Part shown: piece by piece, positions 4,026 through 30,666 of the stretch
Numbering within the stretch: the first letter of the stretch is position 1
Layout: every line of letters begins with the position of its first letter
DNA from: an uncultured Pelagibacteraceae bacterium
GTDB taxonomy: Bacteria > Pseudomonadota > Alphaproteobacteria > Pelagibacterales > Pelagibacteraceae
DNA: 32,671 nucleotides
Direction of reading: 5' to 3'
Assembly: GCA_902527485.1 (NCBI GenBank)
Contig: CABZPB010000011.1
Coordinates: forward strand, 1-32,671
Translations under genes and position numbers: made by a program
The notes under the pieces: model-generated
Told to the model about the DNA's origin: nothing
The model's database searches: none
What the model saw: the letters and a program-made list of their open reading frames with translations, nothing else

Positions 4026-5201
4026 TTAACTTAAGTGTTTTAAGGCTTGTTTAATATCAGCGATAAGGTCGCTTGAGTCTTCGAGTCCTATATGCAACCT
4101 AACAAGGTGCTCATCTTTCGCCAAATTCATGTATTTTCTTTTTCCAATCTCTTTATTTTCCTGATGTAGCACTAAACTTTCAAAACCACCCCAACTATAT
4201 CCGTATCCAAAAAGCTTAAGGGAATTTACAAATTTTCTAACCGAAATTACATTTTGAGCTTTAATCTTTAACCCCATTAAACCAGATGCTCCTGAGTAAT
4301 ATTTTTTCCACATTCTAAAATTTTGTGAATTTTTTTTATATGGATATAGAAGTTGAATTTTTTTATTCTTTGATAAGAAAGCTGCCACTTTTTTTGCATT
4401 ATTGTTATGTCTATCTAATCTAACGTCAAGAGTTCTTAAACCTCTTGTGATTAAATAAGCATCATCCGGTCCCAATCTTTGACCTGTAATTTTTTCGGCA
4501 AATTTTACTTTGGGAAATACTTTCTTATTCACTGCTAAACTCCCTCCCATTACATCTGAGTGACCTGAGTAATATTTTGTTGCGGAAACTATTGACATAT
4601 CGAAACCTAATTTAATAGGTTTAAGATAATAAGGTGTCCCCCAAGTATTATCGATTGCGGTATATACTTTATTTTTTTTTGCAATAGAAATTATTTTATT
4701 CAAATCTTGAAAATCAAAGGTATTACTACCAGGATTTTCAACAAAAATTAATTTAGTTTTAGGAGTGATATTTTTTTGTAAAGTTTTTAAATTGTGAGGA
4801 TCATAAAAAATAGTTTTAATATTAAACTCTTTTAAATAATTCTCAGTTAAAACTCTTGTAGGATTATATACAGGATCAGCCACTAATATTTCATCACCAG
4901 GTCTCACAACACTAAATATAGCCAAGAATACTGAACCAAAACCTGTTTGAGTAGTAAAGACATGATAACTTTCCTCAAGTTTTGTTAAAATTTTTTGTAA
5001 AATATAAGTGGTTGAAGTACCTGTTCTCGCATAATCAAAATACCCTCCTTTAGGATTTTTAATTGCTTTATTTTGCATCTTCCTAATTTCTCGCATAGAC
5101 TTAAATATGATTGTTGATGCCCTTACAACTGGTGGATTTACAGACTGATTATGGAAATCTTTAGCAGTGTGTTTTAAAAATGTCTTAAACGATTTAACCA
5201 T
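4026..5201 (-). CDS. metC: PLP-dependent Cys/Met metabolism enzyme, cystathionine beta-lyase-like
   Basis: Cys/Met-metabolism PLP fold: 'AIDNTWGTPYYLKPIKLGFDMSIVSATKYYSGHSDVMGG' with PLP lysine. Start moved to internal Met (MVKSFKTFLKHTAKDF) because the 14-aa upstream extension is atypical. Confidence 0.85.
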   Translation of the reverse strand: MVKSFKTFLKHTAKDFHNQSVNPPVVRASTIIFKSMREIRKMQNKAIKNPKGGYFDYARTGTSTTYILQKILTKLEESYHVFTTQTGFGSVFLAIFSVVRPGDEILVADPVYNPTRVLTENYLKEFNIKTIFYDPHNLKTLQKNITPKTKLIFVENPGSNTFDFQDLNKIISIAKKNKVYTAIDNTWGTPYYLKPIKLGFDMSIVSATKYYSGHSDVMGGSLAVNKKVFPKVKFAEKITGQRLGPDDAYLITRGLRTLDVRLDRHNNNAKKVAAFLSKNKKIQLLYPYKKNSQNFRMWKKYYSGASGLMGLKIKAQNVISVRKFVNSLKLFGYGYSWGGFESLVLHQENKEIGKRKYMNLAKDEHLVRLHIGLEDSSDLIADIKQALKHLS

Positions 5202-27503: not shown

Positions 27504-27596
27504 GATTTTATCTTAACCAGAATTAATGTTAATGCAAATAATATTTCTATTCTAAAGTGAATTTTTTATGAAGGCTGAATATTACAAAACAGTCAG

Positions 27597-27651
27597 GTTG
27601 TATTCAAGAAATATATTTTATTTAAATTAAAATAAATTAGTTGAATACAAC
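27597..27651. repeat. Long inverted repeat / hairpin
   Basis: GTTGTATTCAA (27597-27607) and TTGAATACAAC (27641-27651), 11-bp perfect arms; loop contains a second TTTATTT/AAATAAA pairing. Confidence 0.65.
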
Positions 27652-27679
27652 TTAACTAAGATTTAGTATTTTTTCATAA

Positions 27680-27797
27680 GGAGGTAGTTTCTATGAATAA
27701 AATGCCACCTGATACTTAGCTGGCTAGCTTTATATTTCATAAAAACGAAAACAGAAAAAAAAGTCTAGTTAGACTTAAGTGCCAAAGAAGTGATTAA
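27680..27797 (+). other. Candidate leader peptide/short ORF with in-frame TAG and sequestered Shine-Dalgarno
   Basis: AAGGAGGT followed by ATG at 27693: MNKMPPDT-TAG(27717)-LASFIFHKNENRKKSLVRLKCQRSD-TAA(27795-27797). AGGT of the SD can pair with ACCT at 27707-27710. Confidence 0.4.
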
Positions 27798-27837
27798 GGG
27801 ATGCTTTTTTGGTTAAATAACCAAAAAGCAAACCCTT
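27796..27837. terminator. Hairpin, possible terminator for flanking transcripts
   Basis: AAGGG-AT-GCTTTTTTGGTT-AAAT-AACCAAAAAGC-AAA-CCCTT; lies just 3' of the short ORF and 3' of the cytochrome c' gene on the other strand. Confidence 0.55.
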
Positions 27838-28307: not shown

Positions 28308-28835
28308 ATGAAATTAAAGAATACCCTAACAGAATATGGAGCTATTTCCAGAATATTTCATTGGTTAAGTGCCACAGTATTAATAATTCAAATTCCTTTA
28401 GGCATGTATCTAGTAGAAATGGATTTTAATGAGAAAAGATTAACCATAGAAAATATTCACGTTATAGTCGGTATTAGTATATTTTACTTAACTATACTTA
28501 GGCTTATTTATAAAACTTTTAATCCAACTCCAAAATTAAATAATAGTATTTTTCCTGGTCAGAAAATAATTGCAAAATTAAATCATGTGTTTTTATATAT
28601 TTCAATTTTAATGATTACTATCTCAGGTGCTCTAAAAAAATTATATAACGGTGAGGAGCTTAATATGTTTTTTTTTAATCTTGAAATTCAAGATAATTTT
28701 GATTTAGCAGAAATATTTTACGAAATACATATAATCGGAAATTACACGCTTATAGGATTAATAACATTACATATATCTGCCGTTATAATCCACAAAATTA
28801 TATTTAAAGAAAATTTACTAAGAAGAATTTTATAG
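28308..28835 (+). CDS. Cytochrome b561
   Basis: 'ISRIFHWLSATVLIIQIPLG', 'IHVIVGISIFYLTILRLIYK', 'NHVFLYISILMITISG', 'YEIHIIGNYTLIGLITLHISAVIIH' with spaced His residues. Confidence 0.88.
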   Translation: MKLKNTLTEYGAISRIFHWLSATVLIIQIPLGMYLVEMDFNEKRLTIENIHVIVGISIFYLTILRLIYKTFNPTPKLNNSIFPGQKIIAKLNHVFLYISILMITISGALKKLYNGEELNMFFFNLEIQDNFDLAEIFYEIHIIGNYTLIGLITLHISAVIIHKIIFKENLLRRIL

Positions 28836-29541
28836 AATAGTACAAATTAATTTATCTTTAAATCTTAGCATACTTCTGTGTTTGGATTGAATTTCTTCTA
28901 TTCCTTGAATAATTTGTTTTTCTTTTAAGGGTATCAAAACTGAGATATACCTTCTTTTAATCATCTCTATATAATTTTTTTTTTTAATCTTTACTTTATA
29001 GATAAATTTTTTTTTAATTACGTGGGGATATAATTTTTTGATTATTTTTTGTATCTTCATATCTCGTATAAGAGATTTATTAAGTTTTTGCCTCATCTTT
29101 TTGAATGTTGGGATTTCATTTTTATTCGTATCTAAGGTAAAAATTAGAATTTTACCATTTTGGTTTAACTTTTTTTTTAATAGATTTAATATCTTTTTTA
29201 TTTCATTAAACTTCATTAAGTGAATTGTTTGCTTGATTATTATAAAATCAAATTTTTGATTATTTTTTTTTGAAAAATTTATTGCATTAATCCTTTCAAA
29301 ATTAATTCTTTTATCTCTGTCTTTGTGATCAATGATATCAATTCCTAAAGGTTTTTTATTGAATTTTAATTTTGAGCTTAGAGAGCCTATAATATTACCC
29401 CTTCCACATCCTATATCTAAGAATTTAGAGTTTGAACTAATACTGATATTTTTTGATTAAAAATTTATTGAATGCATTAATATAACTTTTTGAAGATAGC
29501 CAAGTTTGATTATCCCAATTTTTAATGACAGTTGATGCCAT
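28830..29541 (-). CDS. Class I SAM-dependent methyltransferase, frameshifted as sequenced
   Basis: N-terminal MASTVIKNWDNQTWLSSKSYINAFNKFLIK joins SAM-binding 'ISISSNSKFLDIGCGRGNIIGSL' only after removing one base from the A6 run (T6 on + strand, 29449-29454); continues into the 128-aa track ORF. Confidence 0.75.
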
Positions 29542-29961
29542 ATTTCTTTAATTTCCAATAATTATAAGGCCATGGTGTTAAAAAACCTACAATAAGCATT
29601 AAAGGTACGACCCACCATGTTAATATTGCTCCACCAGTTAAAAAATAATCTGTTAAGTTCATTGTGGTTTCCATACTTATCATTGAAATAAAACTCATAC
29701 CTAAAGCGGTTTTTATTGCATTTTTGAATTTAAAATTTTGACGCAATAAAATAATAGTTTCGAGTATTATGCTAGTTATCAAGCCATTTAAAATAGCTAA
29801 TAACATTATGGCCAAAACAGGAAAAGTTATTTTTGTTATTTGAAAAAAAATAAAATAGTTCCAAAATCTCCTATTGAACAACCAAGTAAACACCATGCAG
29901 TATTTTTTGCACTTTGTCTCCAGGAATTTTTACATGACCATTCAAATCTGGTGGTTTGCAT
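29522..29961 (-). CDS. DUF4396-like membrane protein, frameshifted as sequenced
   Basis: MQTTRFEWSCKNSWRQSAKNTAWCLLGCSIGDFGTILFF then shift in a T8 run (A8 on + strand, 29843-29850) into QITKITFPVLAIMLLAILNGLITS...SMETTMNLTDYFLTGGA...PYNYWKLKKYGINCH. Confidence 0.75.
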
Positions 29962-29983
29962 GATATTATGATAATATTTAATA

Positions 29984-30666
29984 ATGATTTTTAAACAAGT
30001 TTTTTTGACCAAAAATCCAGTACTTACACATACATAATTGCCTCAGCAAAAGGAAGAGAGGCATTAATTATAGATCCCGTTTTAGAGAACGTTGAAGATT
30101 ATATTAAAATACTTAATCAATTAAATTTAAAATTAGTTAAAGTAATAGATACTCACATTCATGCTGATCACGTTACAGGTGCAGGTAAATTAAGAGATAA
30201 AACAAAGTGTGTTACTATAATGGGAGAACATACTCCAACAGATGCTGTTGAAGTAAAAGTGAAAGATGATGAAATAATTGAACTTGATAGTGTCAAAATC
30301 AGAGCGCTCTATACACCTGGGCATACATCTGATAGTTTTTGTTTTTTGATGAAAAATTATTTATTTTCTGGTGATACTTTACTAATTAATGGTACTGGTA
30401 GAACTGATTTTCAAAATGGAAGTTCTAAAGATGCTTATAATTCAATTTTTAATAGACTATTGAAATTGCCTGATGAAACACTTTTGTATCCAGCCCATGA
30501 TTATAAAGGCGAAACAGTTAGTACAATCGGGAAAGAAAAAAGATCTAATCCAAGATTACAGGTTAGAAATGTAGATGAGTATATTGATATTATGAACAAT
30601 CTTAATTTAAGAAAACCAGAAAAAATTGATTTCAATGTTGAATGTAATCTTAAATTAGGATCTTAA
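29984..30666 (+). CDS. Metallo-beta-lactamase fold protein, ETHE1/persulfide dioxygenase-like, frameshifted as sequenced
   Basis: MIFKQV joins FFDQKSSTYTYIIASAKGREALIIDPVLENVEDYIKILNQLNLKLVKVIDTHIHADHVTGAGKL only with one extra T in the T7 run at 30000-30006; THIHADH, YTPGHTSDS and FSGDTLLINGTGRTDF motifs follow. Confidence 0.85.

Follow-up and report, generated by a model that had tools for sequence, protein, structure and literature searches.

Clustered homopolymer frame breaks in three adjacent genes of a SAR11 draft genome are probably local assembly errors

Phase-variable contingency loci, whose reading frame is set by homopolymer length, are known from Neisseria, Campylobacter and Helicobacter. 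In the endosymbionts Buchnera and Blochmannia, frameshifts in poly(A) tracts are rescued by slippage (PMC3017870), and the SAR11 bacteria lack MutS (PMC12374537). Small indels are also left in draft assemblies, for which a widely used single-cell workflow (SCGC/GORG) has been benchmarked at 3.0 indels per 100 kbp (PMC6122165, PMC11247762).

The locus studied here lies in a SAR11 (Pelagibacter-type) draft genome, G000, of 832,549 bases in 58 contigs and 69% completeness. The window, meaning the whole stretch of DNA that was analysed (32,671 nucleotides), is contig 11 (C11) of this draft. Three adjacent genes, with limits set from their orthologues, are each split over two frames:

28830..29541, minus strand: SAM-dependent methyltransferase gene (Pfam Methyltransf_31, E 2.3e-11), frame broken near the 5' end
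29522..29961, minus strand: DUF4396 gene (PF14342), frame broken about 110 nt past the start
29984..30666, plus strand: ETHE1-type (persulfide dioxygenase-like) gene of the metallo-beta-lactamase fold (Lactamase_B), frame broken about 17 nt past the start

The DUF4396 assignment scores 92.8 bits, above the Pfam gathering cut-off of 27, and the ETHE1-type protein shows full-length similarity to solved ETHE1 (PDB 4chl_A, residues 3-222, E 9e-52). The methyltransferase and DUF4396 genes, both on the minus strand, overlap by 20 bases. The ETHE1-type gene is divergent from DUF4396, the two start codons being 22 bases apart, and at least two transcription units are therefore affected. Both flanking genes, for cytochrome b561 and a thioredoxin-like protein, have intact copies in the window and in 25/25 aligned relatives each.

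The original prediction placed one break in each gene at a short A/T run, and stop-to-stop reading bears this out, since the two frames of each gene join at its run. The runs, at the positions first given for them, are as follows:

29449..29454, minus strand: sense A6 (T6 on the plus strand) in the methyltransferase gene; orthologues have A5 at the same column (+1)
29843..29850, minus strand: sense T8 (A8 on the plus strand) in the DUF4396 gene; the closest orthologue and most others have T6 (+2)
30000..30006, plus strand: T7 in the ETHE1-type gene; the closest orthologue has T5 (+2)

The orthologue lengths were obtained by searching 300 genomes of the genus for loci that share this gene order; the closest, G302, is 89% identical. 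The resulting alignment holds 29 loci, 28 of which extend to the second and third sites, and no orthologue is out of frame at any of the three. Read on the plus strand, the changes are T5 to T6, A6 to A8 and T5 to T7, so that all three are expansions. The methyltransferase run had correctly been called one base too long. The other two had been called one base too short, which is equivalent modulo 3 and mistaken in both sign and size. Every other aligned relative has unbroken DUF4396 and ETHE1-type genes, and of the 25 others with a full methyltransferase copy, 24 have that gene intact. Over the approximately 28.9 kb of the window that align with G302, the only uncompensated frame-breaking indels are these three. 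A pattern search of a viral collection found no further copy of the DUF4396 site.

The alignment also bears on whether the locus could be a phase-variable contingency locus. No on/off variation in run length was seen, all relatives being in frame at the three sites. As in contingency loci, frame is set here by homopolymer length; unlike them, every relative seen is in frame, the runs are A/T runs of 5-8 rather than long tracts varying among close relatives, and the genes are not surface structures.

Transcriptional slippage, one of the explanations first offered, fares no better. Slippage at the A/T runs, during transcription or translation, could allow the genes to be expressed, as at the poly(A) tracts of AT-rich endosymbionts: the runs are homopolymeric, the remainder of each frame is open, and homopolymer slippage is well documented in bacteria. 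However, comparison with orthologues, the test that the original prediction itself proposed, gave no out-of-frame run in any orthologue at any of the three sites. An alignment in frame at these sites led us to reject conserved or programmed slippage. Runs of 6-8 are also short for slippage to be efficient, and longer ones stand in frame in the same gene. Slippage would moreover be needed at once at three unlinked sites in two transcription units. We regard this explanation as very improbable. The locus shares with the rescued frameshifts of Buchnera and Blochmannia (PMC3017870) an AT-rich reduced genome, a homopolymer-dependent frame and an otherwise open reading frame, but here only a single genome is out of frame, and its runs are short.

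Frame breaks were then counted across the assembly by searching the genes of one genome against the others for single proteins matching two adjoining frames. The comparison covered approximately 807 of the 833 kb of the source draft, approximately 1.0 Mb of G302 and 400 kb of G314, a one-contig genome. About 11 frame breaks in conserved genes were found in the source draft, 10 of them insertions and one a deletion, nearly all in homopolymers:

C2, position 141
C11, the three breaks described here
C19, positions 1258 and 3522
C21, position 139
C22, position 4741 (74% identity, less certain)
C35, position 2912
C38, positions 4258-4350, two breaks within 90 bp in one gene, 0.4 kb from the contig end, forming a second tight cluster

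The single clear break in G302 lies 962 bp from a contig end, and the 400 kb of G314 that were compared contained none. All breaks in the source draft lie at most 4.8 kb from a contig end (139 to 4,741 bp with the C11 and C38 clusters counted once), and a mean distance this small arose in 0.1% of random placements (permutation P about 0.001). The C11 cluster itself is moderately near the end of its 32.7 kb contig (2.7-3.2 kb) and not at the very edge. With the clusters counted once, the excess over G302 alone is marginal (Fisher P 0.04). The remark that the breaks cluster within about 560 bp holds up, as three of seven events inside 560 bp exceed chance when breaks are placed at random on the homopolymers of this genome (P = 9e-5). 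When coding A/T runs were compared between the source draft and G302 with exact flanks required, 1,838 had the same length and the four that differed were all longer in the source draft. Two of them belong to the three sites described here, a third is 137 bp from a contig end, and the fourth sits at a gene's upstream edge; three of the four lie within 2.9 kb of a contig end.

Because the breaks occur in this assembly and hardly in its relatives, lie near contig ends, add bases to short runs and leave selection undisturbed, a data-quality cause is the simplest. Among the explanations first proposed, a local assembly or read-quality problem is thus the best supported, the breaks in this assembly being far more numerous than in G302 or G314. 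We consider it likely that the three breaks are local consensus errors in the draft and not biology, and the cell itself probably carries intact copies of all three genes. The source draft is most likely a single amplified genome, as judged from its size, fragmentation, low contamination and many single-cell relatives. Coverage in single-cell assemblies is very uneven, and stretches represented by few independent molecules or reads would retain indels. Spurious extra bases could thus have entered short A/T runs inside one poorly supported assembly stretch, and several errors would fall together if they shared a single weak stretch. We infer that local read support at the three sites was low.

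A real and recent pseudogenisation would require that the three genes were dispensable in the lineage of this cell and were inactivated in quick succession by A/T-run slippage, favoured by the lack of MutS-type repair. MutS was absent from 31/31 SAR11 genomes, with a control search positive in 11/14 named genomes; the source draft is incomplete, but complete relatives also lack it. Real run-length mutations should therefore be commoner in SAR11 than in most bacteria. The locus is also less than universal within the order, where many genomes are without a close ETHE1-type copy, and in one relative, L044 (contig C3 of G234), the methyltransferase gene is independently out of frame, with an extra T in a T run elsewhere in the gene. 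Equally MutS-less relatives are nevertheless hardly broken, with one break in approximately 294 gene copies at the locus (four neighbouring genes) and, genome-wide, one in G302 and none in the 400 kb of G314, and the breaks of the source draft track contig ends.

Selection on the three genes adds nothing in favour of their loss. Against G302, dN/dS is 0.20 for the methyltransferase, 0.18 for DUF4396 and 0.10 for the ETHE1-type gene, as low as between intact pairs. Measured against L035, the DUF4396 gene gives 0.10 for the window and 0.11 for the intact G302 copy, and the ETHE1-type gene gives 0.09 and 0.10, respectively. There is no sign of decay in the three genes, although a very recent pseudogene would not show raised dN/dS or further lesions either. 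Neither the unchanged dN/dS nor the absence of further lesions gives positive support to the suggested recent pseudogenisation of one block.

The lengths of the affected runs may also weigh against slippage in the cell. Homopolymers as long as the broken ones had been noted in other genes that are intact. This is correct, and the point holds even within the methyltransferase reading frame, which keeps runs of T11, T9, T9 and T9 in frame. Slippage should favour long runs, yet runs of 5 and 6 are altered while those of T9-T11 in the same gene are not, a contrast drawn from few events, and a strictly length-dependent slippage model was rejected as ill-fitting. Taken together, these observations leave recent pseudogenisation an unlikely explanation, albeit one that retains some weight. 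A further reading, in which a local indel shower of A/T-run expansions in a MutS-less lineage inactivated three genes on both strands and left substitutions untouched, has a slim chance of being correct.

Divergence between the window and G302 is uneven. It drops sharply from about 25% (28750-29480) to 2-10% (29500-30660), with the step near 29480 adjoining the +1 site, and dS is mosaic at 0.93 for the methyltransferase, 0.18 for DUF4396 and 0.22 for the ETHE1-type gene. The cytochrome b561 and methyltransferase genes of G302 are close to those of L035 (dS 0.13). We read the step as a mosaic produced by homologous recombination between SAR11 species, and it is better placed in G302 than in the window. 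We therefore rejected an imported methyltransferase allele in the window as the cause; its best match among 399 genomes of the genus is only 80%.

The position of the step beside the +1 site could suggest a local mutational event in the cell, for example error-prone synthesis at the edge of a recombination tract, that lengthened several runs together. The better placement of the mosaic in G302 counts against this. Comparison of the window with G302 gave no rise in substitution rate near either +2 site, so that these expansions lack an accompanying substitution excess, and such an event leaves the breaks on other contigs unexplained. We consider it extremely unlikely.

The main loose end concerns the size of the steps. 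Illumina data seldom show +2 steps in runs as short as 5 and 6, and such steps are odd under every model considered here, consensus error included.

Another feature of the contig is a stand-alone conserved element at 27590-27830 on the plus strand, between a 59-aa ORF (27503-27324) and a cytochrome c' gene (28307-27852). It carries a 13-bp inverted repeat, GGTTGTATTCAA...TTGAATACAACC, followed by a strong Shine-Dalgarno sequence (AAGGAGG) and a start codon that opens MNxMPPDT. An invariant in-frame TAG within CCACCTGAYACTTAGCTGR comes next, and then a terminator-like hairpin. The element is single copy and genus-wide where sought, having been seen or matched in 12 SAR11 genomes, and was not found in the five same-order genomes tried. 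In most relatives the frame past the TAG is open and indels are multiples of three, L307 being an exception. Pfam and Rfam gave no match above the cut-off. Candidate identities for the element are a leader peptide, a small RNA and a gene read through its stop codon.

A claim of gene loss or of a pseudogene that rests on one draft SAR11 genome needs to be backed by reads or sister genomes, especially where the locus lies only a few kilobases from a contig end. Several conserved genes are split at homopolymers near the contig ends of C2, C19, C21, C35 and C38 of the source draft, and their annotations are best treated as data errors pending reads. Were the lesions real, they would offer a rare view of how homopolymers slip in a wild bacterium that lacks MutS.

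Compared with ordinary recent pseudogenes, the locus is alike in having frameshifts in otherwise conserved genes. It differs in that three adjacent genes carry a single lesion each with no other decay, and in that conserved, housekeeping-like genes near contig ends of the same draft are also broken. Residual indel errors in the SCGC/GORG single amplified genomes offer another parallel. The papers describing them give a mean rate only, whereas the clustering in homopolymers near contig ends and the +2 steps are observations made here. In both cases, small assembly-specific indels are scattered in a fragmented draft at a rate of similar order, the approximately 11 breaks in 0.6 Mb found here being of the same order as the benchmark of 3.0 indels per 100 kbp.
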